A stretch of 47,135 nt of DNA, taken from contig JAFZFT010000026.1 in assembly GCA_017555765.1 (NCBI GenBank), positions 1 to 47,135 of the forward strand, read 5' to 3'. Shown piece by piece: positions 16,823-36,865 of the stretch; the first letter of the stretch is position 1, and each line of letters starts with the position of its first letter. The notes under the pieces were generated by a model. The model was not told the DNA's origin and did no database searches. It worked only from the letters and a program-made list of their open reading frames with translations. The translations under genes were made by a program, and so were the position numbers. The DNA comes from Clostridia bacterium. GTDB taxonomy: Bacteria > Bacillota > Clostridia > Oscillospirales > Acutalibacteraceae.

Positions 16823-19800
16823 TTACTTAAACCAGCTACCGATTTTTGCAAAGAAATCCTTAATAGACTTGATGAGTCTCTGGAACCAGTTGAGTGATTC
16901 CTCAACATCGGGTACTTCGAAGTCAATATCGGGATCAATGCCGATAGCACCGATGAGCATATAGCCGTTAACAGTTAATTTGATTTCATTGTTTTCGTCG
17001 GGCTTTACAGCATTACCGTTTACATAGAAGGTGAATGAATCACCCATAATGTCACCGGCTCTGATGATAATCTCAGTACCGTTGGGAACCTCGTAGGTTG
17101 AGTTACCGAATACGATATCCCAGGTGTTACCGCCGTCCTGTGAAACCTTATACCAGCCGATGCCGTCTGTCTTACCGAAGACGATATGGTGCTCGGTTGA
17201 TGTTGAGCCGCCCTCTGAATCGTCGGGCTCTTCGGGTGTTTCGGGAACATCGGGTGTGTCGGGATCAACAGGTGTATCAGGAGTTTCGGGAACAATTTCA
17301 GTAAAGCTGTAGGTGAACACCTTAATGCCTGTACCGCTTACCTGTGTGGGAGGAGTAACATCCCATGCGCCGCCTTCGAAGCCCTCATTTGCCTTCATTC
17401 CTTCGGGAACAGTAACAGTAGCGTTGCCGTTTTCGTCAAGAGTGAGAACATAGACGATATTATCAGAGCTTCCGTTTGCCCATGTGCCGTTTTCAACCTT
17501 GAAAACAACCACATTCTGATACATATCAGGAGTGCCGTCACTTTCGTCACCGTCTTCTCCGCCGCCTATCTTATCGATATCGTAGTAGAGGCTGAGAACA
17601 ACAAGATCTTTATCATTGACGATTTCTGCACTTGCAAAAGAAATCTTTGAATTATATACATAACCCTCGAAGTTCTTAGGCTGAGCAGTTACTGTTGTAC
17701 CTACCTTACCCATGAACATTCCTACATCGGCGGTGCGATCATATCCGCCCTTATCGTTCTGCTTGTAATGTTCAACAACGTAGTAAACTTCCTTAGCGGG
17801 AGCCTTCTTAAAGCTGAAGGTGTAAATTTCTGCACCGGTGCCGCTTACCTGTGTGGGAGGAATAACATCCCATTCGCCGCCTTCGAAGCCGTCATTTGCC
17901 TTCATACCTACGGGAGCAACAAGCTCTGCAGTACCGTTGATATCATACTTGCCGTCAGTCTTAAGGTCAACAACTGTTACAATATCAGCATACTTACCGT
18001 CTGCCCAGGTACCGTTAACAACCTTGAAGATAACTATCTTCTGATACTTGTCGGGAGTGCCGTCACTTTCTGTACCGTCGTCTCCGCCACCGAAGTTATC
18101 AGCTGCATAGTAGAAGTTGATAACATTCTTTGCGTTATCTGTAGTGATTGTGATTGTCTTACCTGCTTCACTTGTAAGGGTGTAGTTTTCGATTGCAATT
18201 GCATTTTCACTGATTGTGTCTTCAAACTTTGCATCAAGAGTCTTTGCAGCTGCAAGTACTTTATTGGTACCCTCTTCAAGATAGTTTACAGTGTATTTGT
18301 AAGCGCCCTTTTCCCACTTTGCGTAAAGGTCTGTATCTGCTGCTACTGTTTCAGCAATTGCAGTAACCTTGTCGCCTGTGCATTCAGGGTTAGTGTACCA
18401 GCCGCCGAAAACATAGCCTTCACGAACGGGTACATAAGTGATTTCTGTCTCATAACTCCAGATGTGAGTGCTGTGAGAAATAACCTCTGTTTTTTCGTCA
18501 GCATAGTACTCGTGGTAATTTATGTTATAACGATTGGGAATAAGTCTTACCAGAAGTACGCCTGTGGGAGCATCGTTAAGAGGGCTGTAACGTGAGGGAG
18601 CACCGTAAACTACTGATACGGGCCACTCTGCTAAAGCTGTGGTAACCTTTTCCTCGCCTACAAGCTTTGTAAGCTTGGTAAGATTTGCCTGATAGTCGTA
18701 AAGACTACCGTCATAAAGGCTGTTCCATACCCAGTAGCCGTAATCACCGTTGTCCATACCGTCGGCACCCATGCCGATTTCAATACCGTAGGGTTCAACT
18801 GTGTGCTGACTGATTACCTTGTAATCGTTGTCTGAGCCTGTTGCCTTATACATGATTTCAACAAGTGTATCGGAAGGTCTTAAGTTCTTGCCGATGCTTG
18901 TTGCATCAACCTCAACGGGCTGGAAGTATGAAGCGGGTTTAAATGAAAGATAAGCGTTTACAAAGGTTTCCCATTTGCTATCTTCTGTATAAACTGCCTT
19001 GAAATCTTCTTCATTGTAGTCATCTGCATAATCATCGTCACCGTCAACGTAAGTTGTTGAGTTCTGATAGGTTGTGCCGTAGTTGATAGGAAGCACTTCG
19101 ATTCTGTAAGTCTTAACGGGATCAAGACCTGTGAATCTGTAATTTTCTGAAATGCCGTAAACCATTGCGCCCTTAGACCATGTAATATTTACAGTCTGTC
19201 TGTCAATGTTGTATACACCGTCATCTGTGATTTCCTGAAGTGCGATTACAGTTCTTGTTGTACGGTCTACAGGCCATACATCGACCATTTTATCACCCTG
19301 AAGGTATGAGCCTGCAACTTTTACATAACCTGTAAGAATCTGGTCCCATTTTGCATAAAGAGTGATGTTTCCTGTAAGAAGTTCACCGCTTACTGCAGGT
19401 TCCTTGAAATCGGTATCCTTATACCAGCCGCCGAATTCGTGACCTTCAAAGGTGGGAACGTAATTGTTAACATCAGGCACATAATACTCGTCTTCTTCTG
19501 TGAATGTGTTGCCGCCGTTGATTTCGCCGCCGTTTGCGTCGAAGATTACATCGTACTTTTCAACAGAAATCACACCGTGAAGTGTACCCTGCTGTGCATC
19601 TGTAGCATCGTTATAATATGCACCGTTGAGTGATGTACTGAACTTCTTACCGTCAGCGATATCACTCATAGTTGCAGTGTAGTTGCCGTCGGTATAGGTA
19701 ACGATAACAGTGTTGTCGTCCTTTGTGTGGTCCTTTTCGGTAGGTACGATAATAGTTGAATTATCATAAATGAAGCCTGTAACTACTGCACGGTAGCCAT

Positions 19801-22003
19801 AAGCATTACCCTTTGCGTCATACATCCAAACGGGGTATGAGCCTGCACCCTTACCTGTTTCGGGGTCAATATCTACACGTACACCGGGGCGTGTAGTAAG
19901 CTCTGTGCTTCTCTGCTGTGAAATGATAGCCCATTCTTTTGCAACATCATCCCAGCAAGCAATTTTAACGATTACAGCATCGGGATAAAGCTCCTTGGGT
20001 GTACCCTCTTCCATTTCAACGCTGAAATTGAGGTTGAAATCGTTGGGATTATACTGAAGCTCAATGTTGATTGTCCAGTTGCCGTTATCATCCTGAATCT
20101 TTTCAACCTTCTCAACATCATAGCCTGATTTGCTCAGAGCAACACCGAAGCTTGAGGTTGCAAGAAGACCTGAATAAGTTACATCTGTGGCTGTGTACTT
20201 TGTTTCAAGAACAACATCGCCCTGCTTAACTTCTGAAGGAGTATGAGCCTTTTTGTTTCCTTCTTCATCGGTTACTCCGTCTTTTGAGAAGTAAAGTACG
20301 TCGCCTGTTTCAACAAAAGCAGGTGTACCTTCCTTCATTTCAAGGAAGCTGACAACAAGCTTATCCTTGTCTTCGTCGTGGTCATAACCGCCGTCAGCCT
20401 TATGGTTGATTGTAACATTGATTGTAACATCAACTGCCTTTACCCACTTTGCGGTAAGTGTTATGGGAGCAGTAATTGATGATGTAACCTCTGCACCTGA
20501 AGCATAGGTTGCATTGTCATATTCCCAGCCTGCAAAAATATAGCCTTCATATACGGGAATATCTGAGGTAGCATTTACAGCAGACATACTTGAGTAAATC
20601 TCTGTTCTGCTCTTTTCACCTGACTCAAATGCACCGTCGGTTGTATCATACTTTACAGTATAGTGATGAAGGTTAAGCTCTGCATTTGCATTTTCTACGA
20701 TAAGCTCGTAGCCTCTTGCCTCGTGATAAGTACCGTTTTCAAAATGATAAGGAATATATGTACCGTTTTCAACTGTAGTTTCGTAGGTACCTGTATCGTT
20801 CTTTGTAAGAGAGATGTATTCTGTACCCGCTTTGCCCTTACGGAGTAAAAGCTCTACTTCAGCACCGTGGATAGCTGAAATGTCTGTAAGATTTCCGTCA
20901 AGATAGGTCTTTACAGTAGCCAGATAAACGGGCTTTGTTGTATCCTCAACATAACCGTAAACATACTTGGTTTTGCCATTGTCGTTGTACTCAGCACGCA
21001 CTTCTACTGTATATGTAGTATTAGGATCAAGACCTGTGAAGAGAATTGTTCCGTCAGGCTGCTGTTCACCCTTGTTACCGTTTATGAAATATTCGCAACG
21101 GTTATCAATATCAGAAACGAGGGTAAGTGTTGTTGTAGTAGTTGTTGTTTTAGGCTTTTTGAAAACATAAACGATAGGATTGGCAGTGCCGCTTGTGTAT
21201 GCGTGGAACTTACAGTATTCCTTTTTTATTGCAATACTGAGCTGAGCATCACCGGATGTTTCGTTGGTGCCTGCCTTAATGCCATTGACGTAATACTCAT
21301 TAGTGTTACGATCCACTTCCACTTTTTCAACATATATGTACTCACCGCCGTTTAAAATTGAAGCAGCTGAAACAGTACTTGCACTACAGGTAATGTGAAC
21401 AACACCGCTCTCACCGAGAAGATCGCGCACATCCATTCTGTCACCCTCGAAAAGACCGATAACAACATTGTCAAGGTCTTTATCAAGGTTATGGTCCTTA
21501 AAGTTTGTGTAGCTACCTGAGCCGAGGCTCTTGCCGCTCTTATCGAAAACCTCAACGGTAACAGTACCGTTAAGCTGACCGGTCTCAATGTCTGCACCGT
21601 AAACTGAAGCCCATGCAAAGCCAACCTCCTTGAAGGTTTTGTCATAGGTTCTGCCTGCCATACTTGTGGAGCCTGTCATATTCTTTTTATTTATTTTCTT
21701 GGCTGAGTTGTATATTTCTCTCTCTCCGTCGGTATTATTGATACCGTACATATTGTGGGAGTTATATACATACAGATATGTACCGAGTGAGCTTGTCCAC
21801 TTATATGTAAGCTCTCTCGGGTTTCCGTCATAGCCCTCAACCTTTACCTCAAGAAGCTCACTTGAGCGAAGATCAGTAACAGCTCCGCGCATAAAGCTCT
21901 CGATTGTTACTGTTACTGTGACTCCGTCTGCAGCAAAGATACTCATAGGAATCATAGTAAAGAGCATAATGACCGCTAACAAAATGCTTAATACTTTTTT
22001 CAT
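16823..22003 (-). CDS. Giant surface protein with InlB B-repeats and MucBP-like domains
   Basis: A 1726-residue exported adhesin-like protein. The start at 22003 is chosen because AGGAGG lies just upstream and the product opens with a signal peptide (MKKVLSILLAVIMLF...FAA); an in-frame upstream ATG has no such site. The N-terminal 440 residues are unrecognised beta-rich sequence with a run of Thr near 310. InlB-type repeats lie at about 448-521 (ends LTAKW), 814-884 (LYAKW) and 1158-1229 (LYAKW). Two tandem copies of a MucBP-like domain plus a second domain (DGTPDxYQ...PPTQVSGTG) span about 1238-1565. An acidic Pro-rich linker (about 1568-1600), a final beta domain and a basic amphipathic tail (RLIKSIKDFFAKIGSWFK) follow. 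No LPXTG or SLH was seen. Probably adhesion or mucin/glycan contact. Confidence 0.85.
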   Translation of the reverse strand: MKKVLSILLAVIMLFTMIPMSIFAADGVTVTVTIESFMRGAVTDLRSSELLEVKVEGYDGNPRELTYKWTSSLGTYLYVYNSHNMYGINNTDGEREIYNSAKKINKKNMTGSTSMAGRTYDKTFKEVGFAWASVYGADIETGQLNGTVTVEVFDKSGKSLGSGSYTNFKDHNLDKDLDNVVIGLFEGDRMDVRDLLGESGVVHITCSASTVSAASILNGGEYIYVEKVEVDRNTNEYYVNGIKAGTNETSGDAQLSIAIKKEYCKFHAYTSGTANPIVYVFKKPKTTTTTTTLTLVSDIDNRCEYFINGNKGEQQPDGTILFTGLDPNTTYTVEVRAEYNDNGKTKYVYGYVEDTTKPVYLATVKTYLDGNLTDISAIHGAEVELLLRKGKAGTEYISLTKNDTGTYETTVENGTYIPYHFENGTYHEARGYELIVENANAELNLHHYTVKYDTTDGAFESGEKSRTEIYSSMSAVNATSDIPVYEGYIFAGWEYDNATYASGAEVTSSITAPITLTAKWVKAVDVTINVTINHKADGGYDHDEDKDKLVVSFLEMKEGTPAFVETGDVLYFSKDGVTDEEGNKKAHTPSEVKQGDVVLETKYTATDVTYSGLLATSSFGVALSKSGYDVEKVEKIQDDNGNWTINIELQYNPNDFNLNFSVEMEEGTPKELYPDAVIVKIACWDDVAKEWAIISQQRSTELTTRPGVRVDIDPETGKGAGSYPVWMYDAKGNAYGYRAVVTGFIYDNSTIIVPTEKDHTKDDNTVIVTYTDGNYTATMSDIADGKKFSTSLNGAYYNDATDAQQGTLHGVISVEKYDVIFDANGGEINGGNTFTEEDEYYVPDVNNYVPTFEGHEFGGWYKDTDFKEPAVSGELLTGNITLYAKWDQILTGYVKVAGSYLQGDKMVDVWPVDRTTRTVIALQEITDDGVYNIDRQTVNITWSKGAMVYGISENYRFTGLDPVKTYRIEVLPINYGTTYQNSTTYVDGDDDYADDYNEEDFKAVYTEDSKWETFVNAYLSFKPASYFQPVEVDATSIGKNLRPSDTLVEIMYKATGSDNDYKVISQHTVEPYGIEIGMGADGMDNGDYGYWVWNSLYDGSLYDYQANLTKLTKLVGEEKVTTALAEWPVSVVYGAPSRYSPLNDAPTGVLLVRLIPNRYNINYHEYYADEKTEVISHSTHIWSYETEITYVPVREGYVFGGWYTNPECTGDKVTAIAETVAADTDLYAKWEKGAYKYTVNYLEEGTNKVLAAAKTLDAKFEDTISENAIAIENYTLTSEAGKTITITTDNAKNVINFYYAADNFGGGDDGTESDGTPDKYQKIVIFKVVNGTWADGKYADIVTVVDLKTDGKYDINGTAELVAPVGMKANDGFEGGEWDVIPPTQVSGTGAEIYTFSFKKAPAKEVYYVVEHYKQNDKGGYDRTADVGMFMGKVGTTVTAQPKNFEGYVYNSKISFASAEIVNDKDLVVLSLYYDIDKIGGGEDGDESDGTPDMYQNVVVFKVENGTWANGSSDNIVYVLTLDENGNATVTVPEGMKANEGFEGGAWDVTPPTQVSGTGIKVFTYSFTEIVPETPDTPVDPDTPDVPETPEEPDDSEGGSTSTEHHIVFGKTDGIGWYKVSQDGGNTWDIVFGNSTYEVPNGTEIIIRAGDIMGDSFTFYVNGNAVKPDENNEIKLTVNGYMLIGAIGIDPDIDFEVPDVEESLNWFQRLIKSIKDFFAKIGSWFK

Positions 22004-22108
22004 AAAATTTAACCTCCTCAGAAAAAAATATGAACTTTTTAAAAATACAAGGTATTCTAACATATAGCATATTACAAACCACTTACAAAATCAAGGCATA
22101 AAGGAAAA

Positions 22109-27304: not shown

Positions 27305-27814
27305 TCACCCCCAGTTGAATGCGGTACCGCAACCTCTGCAATTAGCTTCGCCGTACATTACAGTGCCTCCGCAAGTGGGGCATCTGTAAACCTGAGGCTG
27401 GGGAGCAGGTGCTGCTGCCGCTGCAGGCTGCTGAACTGTACCCTGTACGCCCTGTGTAACAGCAGGCTGTGAAGGTACGTACTGCTGAGACATAACAGTA
27501 GATGCAATGTATGCATCCTCTGCCTTTTTGGCTTTGATAAGCTCAATAATATCTTTAGTCAACACAATCGGGCAAGCTATCCAACCAAGGGTAACGGAAA
27601 GGAAAAACTTTACAATAAGCATATAGAAGCTGAGCGAAATGAAGATTTTACTTAACCAACGCCATCCGAAGGGGAAACCGCCGCACATGCAAGCCATAAA
27701 AATTTCAATTCCCTGAACTCCGCCACCGACTCCTGCCATGGCTATTATAAATGCTATACCGCAACCAAGTATTGCTAAATCCTTAACGAGTCTCTTTATT
27801 GCTTCACTTTTCAT
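27305..27814 (-). CDS. Small membrane protein with C-terminal zinc ribbon
   Basis: A 169-residue protein. Hydrophobic segments lie at about residues 12-32, 36-50 and 57-85, with a GWRW turn between the last two. A soluble linker rich in Gln, Pro and Ala (about 105-142) follows. The C-terminus is a zinc-ribbon pair, CPTCGG and CRGCG (about 146-166). The layout resembles bacterial TM2-like/zinc-ribbon membrane proteins of unknown role. It lies 13 bp after the lipoprotein gene, so it belongs to the same LytTR-motif operon. Confidence 0.75.
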   Translation of the reverse strand: MKSEAIKRLVKDLAILGCGIAFIIAMAGVGGGVQGIEIFMACMCGGFPFGWRWLSKIFISLSFYMLIVKFFLSVTLGWIACPIVLTKDIIELIKAKKAEDAYIASTVMSQQYVPSQPAVTQGVQGTVQQPAAAAAPAPQPQVYRCPTCGGTVMYGEANCRGCGTAFNWG

Positions 27815-27827
27815 TTTAAAAACTCCT

Positions 27828-28835
27828 TTAACCTATTTTTACAAAATCATATTCTTCGTGGCTTGAAATGTTTTCTTCCAGGCCCTCTAATGTTTCTTCT
27901 ATAGCTCCTAAAAACCAAGAAGAACACTTTTCAAAGGAGATAGTTCCGTCCGGTTTTCTTACAATTTCATTCACCGCAACTGCTTTATACTGATTCGTTT
28001 CATAAAAAGCACCCTGGTAATGAACAGAATAAAAGGTTACATATATCACAAACTTGCTACCGGGCTCTGTTGTGGCAAAGGGTTTAATCTTACCCTCATA
28101 GCAGCCCTTGAGCTCAGCTAAATTACAATAATCGTCTGACAGCTCATCGTTTATTACAAAGTTCTTGATATTTTCAAGCTCTTCAGCACTAAGCTGAGTA
28201 TATGATGTTATGTATTCACCGAGACCTGAAACCGTATAAAGCTTTTCTACCTGCGGGAAAATGAATCCGTGCTTGTATATATTCTCATTAATATGGTCCT
28301 GATATGAACCGCTGTAGGAACTGTATCCGGGTCTTTCTATTTCGATTTTAAAAACATCACCGTTTGAATAATACTCTTTTGAATAATCCTCGGTAACCAT
28401 ATAAAGACCAATTGCAAATTCATCTATCACTTCGTTGTTATAGATAATATTAAATGCTTTATCGTAATATTCATTTGCTTTAAAATAGCAGCCGTTTATT
28501 TCCTGGTAGAAGCCTTCAGGAATTTTCAGCTCAATCTGACCGCCGCCGTTACCGCCGCTGTAAACGATGAACTGCTCTATTATCGGATAAATATCCAATT
28601 CAGTACCGTCGGTTAACTGAGGCTTTTCCTCTTCTTCCTCATCGGGAACAAGACTGCTCTGGCCGAAATAATCGTCATTGTAGTCATCGCCGAACAGTTC
28701 CTCCAAGAGATAATCTTCATCTACGAGATATTCATCGTCTTTGCTTTCCTCTTTGTTACCGCATGCCGCAAAACTGAATAACACAATCAGTGATAATGCT
28801 GAAGCGAGTAAACATCTTACACTTTTCTTAAACAT
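27828..28835 (-). CDS. Acidic lipoprotein of unknown function
   Basis: A 335-residue lipoprotein with lipobox FAAC (Cys25). The first 70 mature residues are extremely acidic (D/E clusters such as DEEEEEKP). The rest is a mixed alpha/beta globular domain with several Tyr-rich segments and no family I recognise. CGGAGG precedes the ATG. It is first in an operon with the zinc-ribbon membrane protein. Its promoter carries three LytTR-like boxes (29018-29064), so it is probably controlled by the two-component system at 33770-35782. Confidence 0.8.
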   Translation of the reverse strand: MFKKSVRCLLASALSLIVLFSFAACGNKEESKDDEYLVDEDYLLEELFGDDYNDDYFGQSSLVPDEEEEEKPQLTDGTELDIYPIIEQFIVYSGGNGGGQIELKIPEGFYQEINGCYFKANEYYDKAFNIIYNNEVIDEFAIGLYMVTEDYSKEYYSNGDVFKIEIERPGYSSYSGSYQDHINENIYKHGFIFPQVEKLYTVSGLGEYITSYTQLSAEELENIKNFVINDELSDDYCNLAELKGCYEGKIKPFATTEPGSKFVIYVTFYSVHYQGAFYETNQYKAVAVNEIVRKPDGTISFEKCSSWFLGAIEETLEGLEENISSHEEYDFVKIG

Positions 28836-28976: not shown

Positions 28977-29064
28977 ATTATATAACTGATTTTTTCACTT
29001 TACAATAGCATTTGTAACCAGCGGTTGTTTTCTCGGGTGAACGGCAAATTAATGCATGAACGGT
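28977..29064 (-). promoter_or_regulatory. Promoter with three LytTR-like boxes, lipoprotein operon
   Basis: Reverse strand: TTGTAA (29000-29005), 17-bp spacer, TATAAT (28977-28982). Upstream boxes are ACCGCTGG (29018-29025), GCCGTTCA (29038-29045) and ACCGTTCA (29057-29064). The first two are 20 bp apart and the proximal one ends 12 bp before the -35. ACCGTTCAT fits the published LytTR consensus [TA][AC][CA]GTTN[AG][TG] exactly. Confidence 0.7.
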
Positions 29065-29189
29065 TAAATTTAACAAGATAATTCCACCTTTAAAGAGTCA
29101 TCCCATTTATAATTTTATCCGCACTGTTACAAGCATCAGGTACGACCGCAGAAAAGCTTCAATAAACGCACCCCGTCGGATAATTGAAC
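29065..29189. other. Intergenic stretch with no recognised feature
   Basis: Lies between the LytTR-type promoter of the lipoprotein operon and the terminator of the Fn3 gene. I see no ORF with a ribosome site, hairpin or repeat here. Confidence 0.5.
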
Positions 29190-29236
29190 AAAAAAAGCGA
29201 AAAGACGTGCCACCTGCAGAGTAGCACGCCTTTTCT
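29190..29236 (-). terminator. Terminator of the Fn3/CPACG protein gene
   Basis: Reverse strand: GAAAAGGCGTGCTAC / GTGGCACGTCTTTTC around TCTGCAG, followed by GCTTTTTTT. It lies about 50 bp after the stop codon. Confidence 0.85.
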
Positions 29237-29284
29237 CAAAACAACACAAAAGAAAGGAGTATCATTATGATTATTGTTTATCTG

Positions 29285-30931
29285 TCATTTAACCAGGGAT
29301 TCAAGATATTCCTGCCTGAAAACAGGATCGTTAAACTGCTTACAATCCCTCATCATGTGGAAGGTACCCTCAGGAACTGCCTCACCGCAAGCGGGGCACA
29401 CAGTATCCTTATTGAAAGGCACATCGTAGCCTCTTATGAAATACCAGCCAATCTGCTTGATAATTTTGCCGTCCTTTGTTCTGTAAGGTCCGGACCAAAT
29501 AACATTGTACGGATAACTAAAATTATCTTCGTGTGCTATTCTATAGTCCTCGTCGTAACCGGAAATTTCGAAGAAATAATAGCGCATCTCCGTAAAAAGT
29601 CTGCTTTTTGCCTCATAGTCAACCTCTTCCGACTCAAGTATACAGAAGCCTACCCAGGGACATCCGTCGAGAGTAACACAGTATGAAAGCTCATAGAATT
29701 CATCTACGAAAAGGTCATATGTATAATCCTCAATAGAGTACTGATAAACACTCTGAGCCTCTTCGTATCCCTCAATATAGAAGTCGCCTACATATTCGCA
29801 GTTAACCTCTTCCTGTGCTTCATATCCGAAGGCAGCCTTGAATTCCTTCTTTATTTCGGAAACATATTTGCTATCATTTTCGGTTGTGTATATGCTTATC
29901 CACGCAGCACACTTGTTATCGTACATAAAATGCTTTGAAGGCAGATTTTTGCTTTCATAAACACCTATAAGCTCATCGAGATTCTCTATCTTATCGACAC
30001 GAACCCGGCGCTCAGACCATTTATCGCTGTATACCTTCTTGCCGCTTACTTCTTTGTAAGCCTTTATTCTGATGTAATAAGTCTTACCGTTTTCAAGATT
30101 CTTCAGAGTTTTTCCGACAGTGGTACCGCCTGACACATTAACGGATTTCTTATTGCCGTAGTTGCTGTAGAGCGAGTAGTGAATAAGGTATCCGTCGGCA
30201 CCCTTCGTCTTATCCCAGCTTAACGCTACCGAAGTCTCAGCGGGAACAGCCTTTTTGATAACTACATCGCTCAGCTCAGAGGTTATCGTTATGGAATCCG
30301 ATGCAGAACCGAACAAGGTTCTACCGTTCAGCTTCTTGTACGCTCTGACGCTGAACACGTAAGCAGTACCGCTTTTCATATTATTAATCTGAGTACTTGT
30401 AGCGGTAAGGGTTCTGATCTTAGTCCATTCGTTTGTTTTGGCATCGTACCTGTAAACTCTGTATCCGCTTGCACCGCTGACCTTATCCCATGACAGCTTG
30501 GCTGTTTTAGTACTGAGAGGTACAAAATCAACACCGGTAACCTTTGCGGGTCTTGTCATCGCCTCAAAGGGTTCGTAAAACTTACCCCAATTAACCTTAC
30601 TGCCGCTCTTTGTATAGGGTCTGAGCTTAAAGGTGTATACCTCACCTGCAGACAAGCCCCTTACAGTATAGCTTGTTTTAGTGGTGGTAACAACCTTTGC
30701 ATATGCCTTTGTCTTGGTATTGTACTTATAAAGTCTGTAGCCCGTTGCGCCCTTGGTCGCTTTCCAGCTCAGCTTTATCGAATTTGTTTTAGTATCCTCC
30801 TGCTTTAAAACATAGCCCGTAGAAGCTGAAGCGGCATTTACAACAGTACTGAAGCATTCTGCCGCTCCGACCGATGAAAACAGCATTAGGAGAACTAAAA
30901 CCAACACCAGAGATTTTTTAATTACTTTCAT
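29285..30931 (-). CDS. Secreted Fn3 protein with unrecognised C-terminal domain and CPACG motif
   Basis: A 548-residue exported protein. The signal peptide (about residues 1-34, ending NAA) is followed by three Fn3 domains (about 36-130, 131-222 and 225-315), each with a [KL]-x-[ST]-W-[DK]-x-x-x-G-A-[ST/D]-G-Y core. Residues about 316-548 form an acidic, Tyr-rich domain I do not recognise. It ends in CPACGEAVPEG and a later Cys (MMRDC), a possible metal or redox site, so it lacks the SVKVK tail. A ribosome site (ACGGAGGT) precedes the ATG. Its promoter (30973-31040) has the best LytTR-like pair in the window. Confidence 0.8.
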   Translation of the reverse strand: MKVIKKSLVLVLVLLMLFSSVGAAECFSTVVNAASASTGYVLKQEDTKTNSIKLSWKATKGATGYRLYKYNTKTKAYAKVVTTTKTSYTVRGLSAGEVYTFKLRPYTKSGSKVNWGKFYEPFEAMTRPAKVTGVDFVPLSTKTAKLSWDKVSGASGYRVYRYDAKTNEWTKIRTLTATSTQINNMKSGTAYVFSVRAYKKLNGRTLFGSASDSITITSELSDVVIKKAVPAETSVALSWDKTKGADGYLIHYSLYSNYGNKKSVNVSGGTTVGKTLKNLENGKTYYIRIKAYKEVSGKKVYSDKWSERRVRVDKIENLDELIGVYESKNLPSKHFMYDNKCAAWISIYTTENDSKYVSEIKKEFKAAFGYEAQEEVNCEYVGDFYIEGYEEAQSVYQYSIEDYTYDLFVDEFYELSYCVTLDGCPWVGFCILESEEVDYEAKSRLFTEMRYYFFEISGYDEDYRIAHEDNFSYPYNVIWSGPYRTKDGKIIKQIGWYFIRGYDVPFNKDTVCPACGEAVPEGTFHMMRDCKQFNDPVFRQEYLESLVK

Positions 30932-30972
30932 ATCTGTGACCTCCGTAGTTTGATATTTGTTGCTATATCTAC

Positions 30973-31040
30973 ATTATGCAAATTATCAGAAAGAAGTCAA
31001 CTGTTTTTGTAATGAGTGGTTGATTTTCGGGGTGAGTGGT
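30973..31040 (-). promoter_or_regulatory. Promoter with perfect LytTR-like direct repeat, Fn3/CPACG gene
   Basis: Reverse strand: TTGACT (30995-31000), 16-bp spacer, CATAAT (30973-30978). Two identical ACCACTCA boxes lie at 31013-31020 and 31033-31040, exactly 20 bp apart, with 12 bp between the proximal box and the -35. Confidence 0.75.
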
Positions 31041-31049
31041 GAGGAAAAG

Positions 31050-31078
31050 AAAGCGGCTATCGATTGATAGCCGCTTTT
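31050..31078. terminator. Terminator of the AT-rich LRR gene
   Basis: Stem AAGCGGCTATC / GATAGCCGCTT with loop GATT, A/T runs on both sides, just after the LRR stop codon. Confidence 0.85.
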
Positions 31079-31082
31079 ATTA

Positions 31083-33533
31083 TTATTTTCCGAACAGTCT
31101 GGCGATAATCTTGATAATTTTCTTCACTGCTTCAAGGATAGAAGCGTAACCGTCAGAGATAATATTCAGAACATTTTCAAAAAAGCCCTCTTCCTCCTCT
31201 TCGGCTTCTTCAAAAGATTCATTTTCATCATCTACATTTCCATTATTTTCCGTTTCGTCAGTATTATCTTCATCTTCTTTTTTATTTTCTTCAGGCTTCA
31301 AGTAAACTGCAAATTTATAATTATAATTGCCTAATTCTTCATTGTTCATAATATCACAAAAATTTTCCAAGGTAAAAGCTTCATAACCATTATTTTCAGG
31401 GTCGGTTTCTATAATTGCAAAAATTCTGGTATTATCTGCACTTGGTACATATTCGCCTTTCAACGGATATAAGCTGGTAAATCCAAAGATATAATCCCCA
31501 ATAGGTGTGAATTCTCTGAAAACAATGTTGTAGAAATTAAGATATGAACCATAATACATAGCAGAAACAAAAACTTTGAATTCTTCTTCTGTAAACTCTA
31601 CTGTACCATCAACATATACACCAATTTTTTCTTCACCTAAAGCGAATTCATCATCAGCAGAACTCATAAATTCAAAAAGTGTATAATTAGAATATTCATT
31701 TTTTGATTTTTCCACAAACACATGCTCTGGAGCTTTGTTGCTTGAAACAGCATTTTTATTTAAATATAAATTCGCATATGAAACCACCATATTTAAGTTG
31801 GCACAATTCTTAAAAGCGCCAGACAGAATACGGGTATCATCACTATCTATTATTACAGTTGTAAGATTTTCAAAATCCGAAAAAGCATTAGATTCAACTG
31901 AAAAAATATCTTTAATAAGAATTTGTTTAGTTAAAGTTGCATACTGTGACCAGGGATGGTATGAGGTAGTTTTTATATTAGTATTTCCCGTGATACCTGA
32001 CACAATAAGAACTTCATCTTCAAAATAATAGCATAAAACATTCGCATTAACTATCAATTGATTGTTTTCATTCGTAAAAATTTCAATCCAATTATAAGCC
32101 TCACCATAACAATAAATATTAGAGGAATAATTTGAAAAAGCATTTGGTTTTATTTCTGTAAGAGTTCGATTTAATTCCACAGTTTCCAAATACGCATTGT
32201 AAGCCAAAGCATATTCCCCAATTACTGATGTATTTATATTCAAAGTGAAATTTAAATCTTTTTTACCGGCCGGATACTGAACTAATATTGATTTATCTTT
32301 ACTATATAAAACACCATTTTCATCGCAATAATAATCATTCTGTTCATCAACAAATATATTTTCTAGAGTAATACACCGACCGAAAGCCTCTTCTTCAATA
32401 GAAGCAACATTTTTAGGTATTTCAATCAACGTTAAAGAACTGCAACCTTTAAAAGCATTTTGTTCGATAATCGTAACAGAATCCGGGATAATTATATCCT
32501 TCAAATTGCTACAACCCCAAAAAGAACCTAAATTTATTGTTGTAAGGTCATCCGAAAGCTCAATATTTTTTAAGTTTTCACAATCCTGAAACATGAAATC
32601 ACCAAGAGAAGTCACCTTACTTCCTATAACGATTTCTTCGAGATATTTACAATGTCCGAATACTTCGTAGTCGCCAAATTGCTCAACACTTTCAGGTACA
32701 GTATAAATGGTTCCTTCTTTTGAAGAAGGGTATTTTACGAGTTGGGTTTTATCTTTATTGAACAATATTCCCTGTTCTGATATGTAATTTTCATTGTTTT
32801 CATCAACTATTATTTCTTTAAGACTATGCCAATCCGAAAACGCACTACTCTCTATGCCGGTTACGCTTGCAGGAATATAAATGCTTTCAACCTTATCACA
32901 ATCGTTGAATGTTGAACCGCCTATACTACGAACATTGTTGCCTATAGTAATACTTGTAGCAGCACTGCACCTATCAAACGCTCCCCGACCCAAATTTATA
33001 ACACTGTCAGGAATCACTATATTTGTAATATTCTTGCAAGCTAAAAATGCATTGATTCCTATACTTGTTACACTATCAGGAATTGTTACATTTGTAAATT
33101 CATAACAAGAAGAAAAAGCACCGTCACCAATACTCTTCACGCCATAAGGAATTGTTACATTTGAAAGAGCAGTACAACTCCCAAAGGCTCTGTCACCTAT
33201 ACGTGTCACGCCATCAGGAATTACAACCTCTTCAAGGCTGTCACAATGTTCAAACATACCATCACCTATACTTGTTATACCGACTTCAACAATGATAGAC
33301 TTGATATCAACATCATAAAAAGGTGAGTAATCAATAAAATTGCGGTAATCATACATATCACCGGTACCACTAATAACCAGCTCACCAGTTAAACTGTCAT
33401 ATGTCCAATAAACATTGTCACCGCATTGTCCTGTTGTTGCAAGGTCATCTTTTGCGCTCGCACTCATGCCAAGACACACAGCAAGGCACAGCATCAGTAT
33501 AAATGCCGCTACATAACTTATCTTTTTCTTCAC
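31083..33533 (-). CDS. Secreted BspA-like leucine-rich repeat protein
   Basis: An 816-residue exported protein. It starts at GTG; GGAGGG lies 6 bp upstream and a signal peptide follows (about residues 1-27), so the unusual start is well supported. Residues about 50-600 are BspA/TpLRR-type LRR_5 repeats of 23 residues (x-IPDSVTSIGxxAFxxCxxL). They are interrupted by blocks like ENNENYISEQGILFNKDKT, typical of the family. Such proteins bind host matrix or other bacteria, or act as surface scaffolds. A very acidic linker (about 745-790) precedes a basic amphipathic tail (EAVKKIIKIIARLFGK). The gene is visibly more A+T-rich than its neighbours. Its promoter carries a LytTR-like pair. Confidence 0.85.
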   Translation of the reverse strand: MKKKISYVAAFILMLCLAVCLGMSASAKDDLATTGQCGDNVYWTYDSLTGELVISGTGDMYDYRNFIDYSPFYDVDIKSIIVEVGITSIGDGMFEHCDSLEEVVIPDGVTRIGDRAFGSCTALSNVTIPYGVKSIGDGAFSSCYEFTNVTIPDSVTSIGINAFLACKNITNIVIPDSVINLGRGAFDRCSAATSITIGNNVRSIGGSTFNDCDKVESIYIPASVTGIESSAFSDWHSLKEIIVDENNENYISEQGILFNKDKTQLVKYPSSKEGTIYTVPESVEQFGDYEVFGHCKYLEEIVIGSKVTSLGDFMFQDCENLKNIELSDDLTTINLGSFWGCSNLKDIIIPDSVTIIEQNAFKGCSSLTLIEIPKNVASIEEEAFGRCITLENIFVDEQNDYYCDENGVLYSKDKSILVQYPAGKKDLNFTLNINTSVIGEYALAYNAYLETVELNRTLTEIKPNAFSNYSSNIYCYGEAYNWIEIFTNENNQLIVNANVLCYYFEDEVLIVSGITGNTNIKTTSYHPWSQYATLTKQILIKDIFSVESNAFSDFENLTTVIIDSDDTRILSGAFKNCANLNMVVSYANLYLNKNAVSSNKAPEHVFVEKSKNEYSNYTLFEFMSSADDEFALGEEKIGVYVDGTVEFTEEEFKVFVSAMYYGSYLNFYNIVFREFTPIGDYIFGFTSLYPLKGEYVPSADNTRIFAIIETDPENNGYEAFTLENFCDIMNNEELGNYNYKFAVYLKPEENKKEDEDNTDETENNGNVDDENESFEEAEEEEEGFFENVLNIISDGYASILEAVKKIIKIIARLFGK

Positions 33534-33567
33534 AAGAAAACCCTCCGTTTAAGTTTTTTACCTTTTC

Positions 33568-33636
33568 ATTATTGTACTCTTTCAGCAAAAAGTCAACCTT
33601 TTATGTAACGAGCGGTCAAAAATTCGACTAAAAGGT
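33568..33636 (-). promoter_or_regulatory. Promoter with LytTR-like pair, LRR gene
   Basis: Reverse strand: TTGACT (33591-33596), 17-bp spacer, AATAAT (33568-33573). Boxes ACCGCTCG (33609-33616) and ACCTTTTA (33629-33636) are 20 bp apart, with 12 bp between the proximal box and the -35. Confidence 0.65.
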
Positions 33637-33667
33637 CGTTTTTATTACTATTTTTACCCAAAAGAGT

Positions 33668-33737
33668 ACCATTCACCCGAAAAAACAACCTTTCATTTCT
33701 CAGGCTCTTGAAATATTGTTTACAAAAATGTTATACT
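33668..33737 (+). promoter_or_regulatory. Promoter with LytTR-like pair, two-component operon
   Basis: Boxes ACCATTCA (33668-33675) and ACCTTTCA (33688-33695) are 20 bp apart. Then come 12 bp, TTGAAA (33708-33713), an 18-bp spacer and TATACT (33732-33737). It is divergent from the LRR promoter and suggests autoregulation. Confidence 0.68.
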
Positions 33738-33769
33738 TTGAACACAATAAAAACCGAGGAAGTGATATT

Positions 33770-34474
33770 ATGAAAATCGCCATCTGCGAAGATGATATTT
33801 ATATGTCTGAGACTCTTAAAGGTTACGTTAAGGATTTTCTCGACAGCAAGGAAATGCTCTTTACTATCGAAACCTTCGATACTGCTGAAAAGTTCAACAG
33901 CTCAACGGAAACCTATGACCTTCTGTTTCTTGATTATGAGCTTCCCGACTCAAACGGTATGGAAATCGCAAAAAACTTAAGAAAAATCAACAAAAAAACA
34001 ACCATCATTTTCACTACATCTTTCCCCCAATATGTTTTCGACTGCTTTGATGTCGGTACTTTCCGTTATCTCGTCAAGCCTGTCAGCTGTGAAAAAATCG
34101 AAAAAGTTATGACTGACTTTATCAACAGCTTTGAGCAGTACGCTAAAATAGACATACCTACAGACGGCGGCGGAGTTGTGTTTGTAAGCTTACCTGAAAT
34201 TATGTATATCGAATCCAACGGCAGATATACAACCGTAAGAACAAACAGCACCAGCTATGTTTCCCCGAAGGCACTCGCAACCTTCCAGGCGGAAATAAAC
34301 AGCTTCCGTTTTTACCGTACACACAGAACGTTCCTTGTAAATATGAAGTACATCGCTGAAATTCACGGCAGTACCATTGTACTTACCAACGGAGAAAAGG
34401 TCTCTATCAGCAGACGAAACCTTTCTACATTCAATAATGCTTACTTCAATTTCCTTAAGTACAGCGACTTATAA
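33770..34474 (+). CDS. LytTR-family response regulator
   Basis: A 234-residue AgrA/VirR-type regulator. The start at 33770 is chosen because GAGGAAGTG precedes it, the product opens with the receiver motif (MKIAICEDD), and an in-frame upstream ATG (33716) lies before the -10 box. The receiver domain (about 1-122) has the acidic pair at Asp8-Asp9, phospho-acceptor Asp55 (LFLDYELP) and Lys103 (YLVKPVS). The LytTR DNA-binding domain (about 128-232) shows IMYIESNGRYTTV, FYRTHRTFLVN and a C-terminal SISRRNL. It should bind paired direct repeats, which occur before this gene and before three neighbouring units. The kinase gene follows after 12 bp. Confidence 0.93.
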   Translation: MKIAICEDDIYMSETLKGYVKDFLDSKEMLFTIETFDTAEKFNSSTETYDLLFLDYELPDSNGMEIAKNLRKINKKTTIIFTTSFPQYVFDCFDVGTFRYLVKPVSCEKIEKVMTDFINSFEQYAKIDIPTDGGGVVFVSLPEIMYIESNGRYTTVRTNSTSYVSPKALATFQAEINSFRFYRTHRTFLVNMKYIAEIHGSTIVLTNGEKVSISRRNLSTFNNAYFNFLKYSDL

Positions 34475-34486
34475 GGAGCGGACATT

Positions 34487-35782
34487 ATGAGCTTAACCGA
34501 TTTAAATTTAACTAACATTTTAAATATTATCGGTATTTTCTTCAGAGACCTGACAATGATTGTCAATTATCTGTTTTTAGGAAAATACCTTCTGAAGGGC
34601 GATATAAAGAAAAACAATATTCTCACCGCCTTCTCTTTGGCTTTCCTTGCTGCAGTATCAATAGCCGGTGAGATGTACATAGTTCCTAACGATCCCGACG
34701 GTCACGAATTCACAACAGTAATTTCTACGTTTATATTCGTCATCGCAATGTGTATTTATATCAGAAACATAAAGAAAGGTCAGTTTGTATTTCTTATGTT
34801 TGTGTATACAGCCATTGTAGATATGACATACACATATTTTGAGAAATTTTTACCCGAGCACCATTATGTGGAGTGCTTTATATACGTTGCAATTTATCTG
34901 TTAATAACTATTTTTGTCAAAATTTCGGTCAAAAAGGCTCCCACAAATATCTTCCCTGAAGTTATTGCTACTGTTCCGAAATGGCTTTTGTGGACTCTTG
35001 CCTTATTCTGCTTCACAAAGTACCTTACCGAAGACGGAGATCTACCTACCCTTGAAAAAATCCTCACCCCGATAGTATCCGTCGGTATTATCTGCTGTAT
35101 CATTTACTTTATGTACAGAATTTTCAGCCTCACCTATCAGCAGACGGAAATCCTCAAGGAAATGCACAACCAGAAGGTACACTCTGAAAATCTGATCAAG
35201 GGCGACGAAAACTTAAGAAAATTCAGACACGACTACCGTAATCATATGATCGCTATTAACGCTTATCTGGAAAACGGACAGACTGACAAAGCCAGAGACT
35301 ATATAAATAATATCAACTCAGGCATAAGCGATTCTCTCAATAAAATTTCTACAAGTAACTTTGTTGCTGATGCTATTCTTAACAATAAGGCTGTTGTTGC
35401 AGCTCAGGCAGGTAACAAAATCGTGTTTGACGGACAAATACCCTCTGAAGGTATAGCCGACCAGGATATTTGTACTATCCTTGCAAATGCTGTTGACAAT
35501 GCCATTGAGGCAACTGCTGATATTCCCGGTTCAACAATCAGCATTGATGCGGCAGTGCGTAGCGGTTATTTCATACTTGAAGTAACCAACCCCGTCAAGG
35601 AAAACGTTAAGATCGGTAAGAACAATACCCTTAAAACGACTAAAAAGAACCGTAATGAACACGGCATCGGCACTCAGAACATTCAGAGAGTTGTTAAAAA
35701 ATACAACGGTGCCCTCAACTTAACATGTGAAAACAAGATGTTCAGATTCGAGGTACGTCTGAATTATAATAGAAACAATTAA
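34487..35782 (+). CDS. GHKL sensor histidine kinase (AgrC/VirS-like)
   Basis: A 431-residue membrane kinase, partner of the preceding regulator. Residues about 1-215 contain roughly six hydrophobic segments and no large extracellular domain, as in peptide-sensing AgrC/ComD kinases. A short coiled linker leads to the phospho-acceptor His248 in FRHDYRNHM, the N-box DICTILANAVDNAIEA and the G-box HGIGTQNIQRVVKKY. AAGGAG overlaps the end of the regulator gene. No agrB, agrD or similar peptide gene is nearby, so the signal is unknown. The operon ends at 35788-35824. Confidence 0.92.
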   Translation: MSLTDLNLTNILNIIGIFFRDLTMIVNYLFLGKYLLKGDIKKNNILTAFSLAFLAAVSIAGEMYIVPNDPDGHEFTTVISTFIFVIAMCIYIRNIKKGQFVFLMFVYTAIVDMTYTYFEKFLPEHHYVECFIYVAIYLLITIFVKISVKKAPTNIFPEVIATVPKWLLWTLALFCFTKYLTEDGDLPTLEKILTPIVSVGIICCIIYFMYRIFSLTYQQTEILKEMHNQKVHSENLIKGDENLRKFRHDYRNHMIAINAYLENGQTDKARDYINNINSGISDSLNKISTSNFVADAILNNKAVVAAQAGNKIVFDGQIPSEGIADQDICTILANAVDNAIEATADIPGSTISIDAAVRSGYFILEVTNPVKENVKIGKNNTLKTTKKNRNEHGIGTQNIQRVVKKYNGALNLTCENKMFRFEVRLNYNRNN

Positions 35783-35787
35783 GTTTA

Positions 35788-35824
35788 AAACACCTGTTCG
35801 GGTCAGCTGAACAGGTGTTTTTCT
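35788..35824 (+). terminator. Terminator of the two-component operon
   Basis: Stem AAACACCTGTTC / GAACAGGTGTTT followed by TTCT, just after the kinase stop codon. Confidence 0.88.
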
Positions 35825-35895
35825 GTATGCCACAGCACATTTTAATACAGTACTTATTGTGGTGCTTTCGGATTAATTATTTTCCGTCAACAGCG

Positions 35896-35924
35896 TTGTC
35901 AATTCTGATTTGCTGTAGTATAAT
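35896..35924 (+). promoter_or_regulatory. Promoter of the cytosolic phosphodiesterase-GH3 unit
   Basis: TTGTCA (35896-35901), 17-bp spacer, TATAAT (35919-35924). Confidence 0.75.
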
Positions 35925-35953
35925 AGAAGTAATCTGGCAGAGGAGAGATGATT

Positions 35954-36865
35954 ATGTCACGAAAATATTCCCACGTAATAGTTATAGGTGTTGACGGTGC
36001 AGGTGCATGGTTCAAGGATGCCGACACACCGAATTTTGACCGTATCTTTGCTGACGGTGCAGTTACTTATAAGGCATTATCCTCAAAACCGACAATAAGT
36101 GCAGAATGCTGGGGCTCAATGCTTATCGGTGTAGGCCCCGAGGTGCATAAGCTGACAAACAAAAAGGTTTCACTTCTCCCCTATCCCCTGTGGTCGAAGT
36201 TTCCCACTGTTTTCCGCCGTATAAGAAAAGCTTATCCAAAAGCAGAGCTTGGCTCTTACTGTGACTGGAATCCTATTACAAAGGGAATAGCGGAAAAATT
36301 CATCGGCATTTCTCACCGTACGGCAAGAGATAAAGAGCTGACACCCCTTATCTGTGATTACATAATAAAAAAGAAGCCCGATTTCCTCTTCATTCACTTT
36401 GACAGCTGTGACGGAGCCGGGCACAGTAACGGGTACGGAACAGAGCAGCATCTGAAAACTATATCCGAAAACGATAAGCTAATCGGCGACGTTTATTCCT
36501 CTGTAGAAAAAGCAGGTATTCTTGACGATACACTTTTTATGATTATCGCAGACCACGGAGGTACCGTCGAAAACGGCAGAGGCAGTCACGGCGGCTGGAC
36601 GGACGAAGAAAAGTATGTTACATTTGCCGCTGTCGGTAAGGGTATAAACAATTCAGAAATCAGGGAAATGAATATCCGTGACCTTGCCGCAATCGTACTT
36701 TACGCTATGGGAATAGAAATTCCCGAATTTGACGAAAATGGCTGGACCTCACAGATTCCTGACGGATTATTTGAAGATTATAAGGGCGACTATCGTGATA
36801 TATCTCACCTGACAGGTGCCGCACCCCGAATTTCAAAAACACATCACACTTCAGAGCTTGTCTGA
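35954..36865 (+). CDS. Cytosolic alkaline-phosphatase-superfamily phosphodiesterase
   Basis: A 303-residue enzyme, paralogous to the exported one at 9753 but lacking a signal peptide and tail. The ATG at 35954 is preferred to one at 35948 because it lies 8 bp rather than 2 bp after AGGAG. Metal and active-site motifs are GVDGAG, TISAECWGS, FDSCDGAGHS, ADHGG and GSHGG. It should hydrolyse a phosphate ester inside the cell; the substrate is unknown. GH3 follows after 54 bp with no terminator between, so it may act on a phosphorylated or glycosylated product of the same pathway. Confidence 0.8.
   Translation: MSRKYSHVIVIGVDGAGAWFKDADTPNFDRIFADGAVTYKALSSKPTISAECWGSMLIGVGPEVHKLTNKKVSLLPYPLWSKFPTVFRRIRKAYPKAELGSYCDWNPITKGIAEKFIGISHRTARDKELTPLICDYIIKKKPDFLFIHFDSCDGAGHSNGYGTEQHLKTISENDKLIGDVYSSVEKAGILDDTLFMIIADHGGTVENGRGSHGGWTDEEKYVTFAAVGKGINNSEIREMNIRDLAAIVLYAMGIEIPEFDENGWTSQIPDGLFEDYKGDYRDISHLTGAAPRISKTHHTSELV

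Follow-up and report, generated by a model that had tools for sequence, protein, structure and literature searches.

A LytTR two-component system with a probable autoregulated, local surface-protein regulon in a Clostridia draft genome

Four promoters in a 47,135-nucleotide stretch of a Clostridia draft genome carry paired octamers in one fixed geometry, close to the genes of a LytTR response regulator and a GHKL sensor kinase, and the reading that we favor, from the sequence and at a probability of roughly 0.83, is that of a LytTR two-component system controlling its own operon together with a short, local set of surface-protein genes. This stretch, hereafter the window, corresponds to contig C152 in a draft genome of 2.42 Mb (171 contigs, 94.6% complete). 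By its regulator, the closest named relative, at 81%, is a MAG of the Clostridia from the rectum of dairy cattle, in a search that may omit entries belonging to the genome of the window itself. What the sequence establishes directly comprises the sites with their fixed geometry, the promoter-like hexamers, the protein domains and the local confinement. To our knowledge, the control of surface proteins in uncultured gut Clostridia has been little studied.

RESULTS

Layout of the locus

The genes and terminator-like elements on which the argument draws are the following.

33770-34474, forward strand: response regulator of 234 aa, with a receiver and a LytTR DNA-binding domain (PF00072, PF04397)
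34487-35782, forward strand: GHKL sensor kinase of 431 aa, with an HDYRNH motif and HATPase_c_5 (Pfam and hydropathy scan)
31083-33533, reverse strand: BspA-type LRR protein of 816 aa with a signal-peptide-like start (PF13306, 276.8 bits)
29285-30931, reverse strand: Fn3 protein of 548 aa with a signal-peptide-like start and a C-terminal CPACG...H..RDC (PF00041)
27828-28835, reverse strand: putative lipoprotein of 335 aa with a lipobox-like FAAC, first gene of the P1 operon (sequence inspection)
27305-27814, reverse strand: 169-aa protein with hydrophobic stretches and a C-terminal zinc-ribbon-like CPTCGG...CRGCG (start 13 bp after the lipoprotein gene)
31050-31077, reverse strand: terminator-like hairpin between the LRR gene and P2 (hairpin scan)
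29199-29235, reverse strand: terminator-like hairpin between the Fn3 gene and P1 (hairpin scan)

The first-pass annotation had assigned the operon adjoining the promoters to a LytTR regulator and a GHKL kinase, and the domain scan bears this out: the LytTR domain matches PF04397 at 77.2 bits (1.1e-21, cut-off 22.6), the receiver domain matches PF00072 at 52.7 bits and the GHKL kinase domain match reaches 78.8 bits. The kinase has six hydrophobic segments in a hydropathy scan, and its gene begins 12 bp downstream of the regulator gene. The LRR gene is divergent from this operon, and the tail of its product looks amphipathic by eye. A surface-protein regulon had also been proposed, and the first genes behind P1, P2 and P3 do look exported, each having a signal-peptide-like N-terminal stretch. 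Neither the putative lipoprotein nor the 169-aa protein gave a match in the Pfam scan. Given the hairpins that separate the LRR gene from P2 and the Fn3 gene from P1, these look like separate units, in a scan that listed 11 terminator-like hairpins in 9.2 kb versus 5.9 in shuffles.

Octamer pairs and promoters

Between positions 28977 and 33737, four promoters (P1 to P4) have octamer pairs, with all eight octamers where they had earlier been placed, an octamer period of 20 bp and a gap of 12 bp from the proximal octamer to the -35 hexamer in 4/4 cases.

29038-29045, reverse strand: P1 distal octamer GCCGTTCA, lipoprotein operon (pair geometry, window-type and relatives-only models)
29018-29025, reverse strand: P1 proximal octamer ACCGCTGG (pair geometry, window-type and relatives-only models)
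29056-29064, reverse strand: third P1 repeat ACCGTTCAT, 19 bp upstream of the P1 pair (relatives-only model)
28977-29005, reverse strand: P1 -35 TTGTAA and -10 TATAAT, spacer 17 (promoter consensus scan)
31033-31040, reverse strand: P2 distal octamer ACCACTCA, Fn3 gene (pair geometry, window-type model)
31013-31020, reverse strand: P2 proximal octamer ACCACTCA (pair geometry, window-type and relatives-only models)
30973-31000, reverse strand: P2 -35 TTGACT and -10 CATAAT, spacer 16 (promoter consensus scan)
33629-33636, reverse strand: P3 distal octamer ACCTTTTA, LRR gene (pair geometry, window-type model)
33609-33616, reverse strand: P3 proximal octamer ACCGCTCG (pair geometry, window-type and relatives-only models)
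33568-33596, reverse strand: P3 -35 TTGACT and -10 AATAAT, spacer 17 (promoter consensus scan)
33668-33675, forward strand: P4 distal octamer ACCATTCA, regulator operon (pair geometry, window-type model)
33688-33695, forward strand: P4 proximal octamer ACCTTTCA (pair geometry, window-type model)
33708-33737, forward strand: P4 -35 TTGAAA and -10 TATACT, spacer 18 (promoter consensus scan)

The description of the pairs as ACC-type holds in general but not for the P1 distal octamer, GCCGTTCA. Likewise, ACCGTTCAT, which had been said to fit the published LytTR consensus exactly, is present in the window, but as the third repeat of P1 and outside the octamer pair; the consensus behind that claim is reportedly the bracketed one of Nikolskaya and Galperin. 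Counted as 9-mers, the repeats are separated by 11 bp and followed by another 11 bp before the -35 at the four promoters. Each of P1 to P4 has 10/12 consensus matches in the promoter scan of 9.2 kb, which supports them weakly because it listed 31 promoter-like sites versus 26.0 in shuffles.

A pair rule devised post hoc from the sites themselves, NCCNYTNR-N12-ACCNYTNR-N12-TTG, matched the window four times, whereas 300 shuffles that kept the dinucleotide content averaged 0.007 matches (maximum 1); without the TTG, it matched four times versus 0.22 (maximum 2) in as many such shuffles. Looser ACC-N17-ACC pairs number 22 on both strands of the window, three of these being among the four promoter sites. 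A stronger test, independent of a rule written from the sites, is the out-of-sample ranking by model R3, which was trained on 14 sites of relatives without any letters of the window. Its 18 window matches (47,135 bases, both strands, filters off) were headed by P1 (E 0.00026), P3 (0.053), P4 (0.069), P2 (0.12) and the third P1 octamer (0.27), with the next at 1.9; taken singly, P1 alone is clearly significant, and the informative point is the rank of all four sites. Over the whole genome to which the window belongs, with 150 of 1016 first-look candidates scored, the matches of R3 were confined to P1 (E 0.0136) and a single partial one (1.02). The window motif is unlike those of the relatives, which mostly have a period of 21 or a -35 one base nearer.

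The window-type model was trained on five sites, the four of the window and that of L114, a locus in a relative. It scored the four at 49.8, 49.4, 48.0 and 47.3 bits in their own genome and ten other matches at up to 17.1 (150 of 845 first-look candidates scored); the high values arise because the same sites trained the model, and it is the gap to the remaining matches that is informative, so that the recognizable regulon is local. The motif was not found at random positions genome-wide by this profile model, and the local regulon of the first-pass annotation is supported. The 17.1-bit match, on C61, was rejected as a site, lying within a glycosidase-like reading frame and having no distal octamer, as was C82:29109-29148 as a window-type site, which by eye resembles the pair of another LytTR regulator, on C13. 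That C13-like pair (L191) precedes a small membrane-protein-like gene and is a candidate for a second regulon. Across 15 genomes (E 0.05), the window-type model exceeded 40 bits only in the window's own genome (four matches) and in G021 (one, the training site preceding the orthologous regulator), and gave one weak match of 18.7 bits in G016, which has no close regulator.

The regulator and its repeat in relatives

The proposed link between regulator and motif gains from two comparisons: the pair before the regulator is kept in L114, whose regulator is 81% identical to that of the window, with the -35 at the same offset, and the repeat type tracks the clade in four regulator clades. Among 81 regions upstream of regulator homologues, the window included, 9-mers are repeated 21 bp apart in 25 versus 1.0 in 2-mer block shuffles and 20 bp apart in 9 versus 2.0, the next largest distance being 12 (10/81 versus 3.8). 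In a tree of 24 regulators, 14 rows of which (3 + 3 + 6 + 2) were classed by eye, ACCGTT-type pairs with period 21 characterize the clade L116/L119/L124, a period of 20 and a -35 one base nearer characterize L121/L126/L128, GTTCCCG-type repeats characterize L117/L118/L120/L125/L127/L129, and the window with L114 has a repeat type of its own; L115 and L037, outside these four clades, have period 21. Two genomes (G004 and G019) each hold one regulator from each of the first three clades (L116-, L121- and L117-type), and the repeat type therefore follows the regulator and not the genome. Conservation of the site before the regulator, and co-segregation of repeat type with regulator clade, are also established as far as sequence comparison goes, and the kept pair, the clade co-segregation and the LRR neighbor described below argue that the link of regulator to site is more than proximity.

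Flanking sequences contain further copies of a regulator's own repeat, 14 versus 1.9 expected at up to 2 mismatches (cross-locus control) and 26 versus 8.5 at up to 3, counted over the 34 of 81 loci whose regulator has a repeat by the rule used. Eight of the 26 copies lie 2.09-2.19 kb past the regulator start, at about the end of the kinase gene (gene list of L037 checked). At L115 (8671-9261, genome G020), three ACCGTT-type pairs were seen within 600 bp behind the kinase gene, and by the ORF rule used no gene was found within 460 bp of the first of them. In Roseburia faecis and other, mostly Lachnospiraceae, loci (L060, L092, L096, L097 and L107), a LytTR pair lies about 2.1-2.5 kb past the regulator start. 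The products of the genes behind that pair we take to be FlxA-like, and a CCGAAA-like element at some of these loci is presumably reminiscent of sigma-28 promoters. In distant relatives, the architecture is kept with another output.

Model R2 had 20 hand-picked training sites, with weaker candidates (L035, L036, L122, L130 and others) left out, and the genome association covered 30 same-genus genomes drawn from a larger group, with 150 candidates scored per genome. At E <=0.001, 11 of the 30 had sites (30 in total): 9/11 genomes with a close regulator, defined as E 1e-35 or better by a line set after the list was viewed, versus 2/19 without one (Fisher p 1.8e-4). In the same 30-genome search, a close regulator was unaccompanied by such a site in G001 and G008, and sites occurred without a close regulator in G009 and G011. 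Seven genomes had supplied training sites; among the other 23, the figures are 2/4 versus 2/19 (p 0.12), and the association at p 1.8e-4 leans on the training data.

The LRR neighbor and the predicted targets

The partnership with an LRR gene is the least expected part of the system. A BspA-type LRR gene lies within 1.5 kb of the regulator-kinase locus at 18/19 loci with readable flanks, the window included; it is divergent from the regulator at 11 of them and follows the kinase at 7, and L116 has none. Farther out than 1.5 kb, there were eight LRR stretches in 169,897 bases. The count leaves out L039 (its regulator is that of L120), L114 (145 bp of sequence before the regulator) and L118 (195 bp of sequence behind the kinase and no LRR in 4 kb upstream; 18/20 if included), as well as the distant regulators L123, L130, L131 and L132, with no LRR match in the stretches covered, and L133 (25% identity), which has an LRR match behind its kinase. 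Among the matches listed in our limited literature search, there was no paper that connects BspA-type LRR genes with LytTR systems.

Other first genes behind the sites also tend toward the cell surface. In the window and relatives together, 15/19 have a hydrophobic signal-peptide-like or membrane stretch at the start by a crude hydropathy test that has no background rate; the count leaves out the regulator's own promoter, L189 and L190, and L115:8671 yielded no ORF by the rule used. A domain scan of eight predicted target genes in relatives found surface-type domains in seven (LRR_5, Fn3, RicinB lectin, List_Bact_rpt, M23 or dockerin) and a GLUG motif in the remaining one. Individual targets seem to turn over: for the window lipoprotein, 8 related genomes gave no match, in a search that had no positive control. 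In G021, neither the Fn3 nor the LRR gene had a clear orthologue with a site, the best matches being 39% over parts, and an LRR start 51% identical on G021:C283 had no site by the pair rule in the 1.5 kb examined.

Some features recur in these proteins. By eye, secreted proteins (31083-33533 and 16823-22063 in the window; L119, L126 and L178) often end in a short amphipathic-looking tail, preceded in several predicted targets by a CxWCGxxH knuckle. Zinc-ribbon-like cysteine pairs occur at the C-terminus of the window proteins 29285-30931 and 27305-27814 and at the N-terminus of the predicted targets L182 and L183 of G019.

DISCUSSION

The octamer pairs may be real LytTR sites and yet serve, in full or in part, a different LytTR protein encoded in the genome, as a shared regulon. 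There are three LytTR domains in the genome (window, C13 and C89), and the C13 promoter has a related pair, ACCATTCA/ACCATACA, at 13.3 bits in the window-type model. However, that pair has a period of 21, a -35 offset of 39 and a different spacer, it scores 34 bits under the lowest window site, and the repeat type is specific to the regulator clade in all four that were examined; we regard a shared regulon as improbable.

A second question is the sign of regulation, and here comparison with known LytTR systems is instructive. PMC6193735 describes LytTR operons with 9-bp repeats mostly 12, sometimes 11 or 13 bp apart and mostly 10 bp from the -35, with SMU_1070c arranged as 9-11-9 followed by 11 bp; the window's geometry (9-11-9, 11 bp to the -35) is that of SMU_1070c and falls within the range of Tables 2 and 3 there. 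The LytTR Regulatory Systems (LRS) set out in the same paper likewise have autoregulatory direct repeats a few base pairs upstream of the -35, but their partner is a membrane inhibitor protein, whereas in the window it is a kinase, with a receiver domain in the regulator. An LRS assignment was rejected, as the partner has HATPase_c_5 and the HDYRNH motif and is not a membrane inhibitor. PMC2766830 states the LytTR rule as a 12-bp distance between 9-bp repeats, reports 10-bp repeats 11 bp apart for SilA, which activates, and describes the sil locus as an autonomous unit, thus a precedent for a local LytTR regulon. PMC4227749 places AgrA repeats immediately upstream of that system's own P2 and P3, and PMC4064291 holds that the exact distance from repeat to repeat is crucial and that AlgR sites need not be repeats. 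The systems in these three sources (PMC4227749, PMC2766830 and PMC4064291) share with the window a receiver-LytTR regulator with a kinase beside it and, close before the regulated promoters, imperfect direct repeats of about 9-10 bp at a distance of 11-12 bp. Repression of P1 to P4 in place of activation is conceivable, as the sign is not given by sequence alone, but each of the four pairs ends 12 bp before the -35, where activators sit in published LytTR systems (PMC6193735 and PMC2766830), and no pair overlaps a -35 or -10; we hold repression to be very improbable.

As is typical of LytTR response regulators, the window combines a LytTR domain, a receiver, an adjoining kinase and direct repeats of about 9 bp, spaced 11-13 bp apart and just before the -35. 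Given the published placements, the site type, the geometry, the autoregulation and the local confinement are therefore of a known kind. The targets differ: agr-type systems act on a peptide quorum-sensing locus, whereas those in the window are LRR, Fn3 and putative lipoprotein genes, the P3 product being of the same type as BspA-like (LRR_5) surface proteins (PF13306, 276.8 bits).

Right after the proximal octamer, P1 to P3 share TTACAWA (29005-29045, 31000-31040 and 33596-33636), which is absent from P4 and L114 and possibly marks a second determinant or common ancestry. This shared element, together with the several Fn3 and LRR genes of the window, would suit a promoter segment copied among surface-protein genes whose octamers have no present regulatory role. 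Against such copying, the genes behind the four promoters are unlike (putative lipoprotein, Fn3, LRR and regulator), many letters between octamers and promoter vary while the distances are constant, the regulator's own site is kept in L114, and relatives have such pairs before other genes, which leaves little room for it. That ACC-rich half sites lined up with ordinary promoters by chance has a negligible probability, common as ACC-N17-ACC pairs are (22 in the window on both strands), in view of the shuffle test (4 versus 0.007), the genome-wide bit gap and above all the out-of-sample R3 ranking, which largely refutes it.

Our results thus leave the autoregulated two-component system as the preferred explanation, and for its workings we infer that the regulator is phosphorylated, binds the sites and activates the promoters instead of repressing them, with positive feedback and in response to a cue. 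The kinase (34487-35782) would sense an extracellular cue and phosphorylate the regulator (33770-34474), which would bind the octamer pairs as a head-to-tail dimer. Bound 12 bp from the -35, the phospho-regulator would activate a sigma-A-type promoter, whose -35 starts 40 bp downstream of the first base of the distal octamer. Its own operon (P4) would be activated too, giving positive feedback, and the three further activated promoters would serve exported proteins, namely LRR, Fn3 and the lipoprotein operon.

A more speculative extension, which we consider unlikely, is that the LRR surface protein is part of the sensor as well as of the output. The LRR protein, or its amphipathic-looking C-terminal tail, might signal contact at the surface or a bound ligand to the kinase. 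The kinase might in turn raise the level of the LRR protein and of other, rapidly changing surface proteins. Its basis is that the LRR gene is all but fixed beside these LytTR kinases, with no AgrB or peptide gene recognized: AgrB (PF04647) had 0 matches in the window's own genome (94.6% complete), in a search whose control matched 1/14 genomes and 0/14 above cut-off, and inspection of the ORFs of at least 20 aa at 33200-36000 revealed no obvious peptide gene. If true, a contact-driven feedback switch would stand in place of a peptide quorum switch.

Regulator, probable site, spacing rule and targets can all be read from the DNA of this locus. Related rules hold in the paralogous systems of relatives, and regulons can therefore be predicted for genomes not yet grown, while the nearly constant LRR neighbor points to a testable sensor-output pair.
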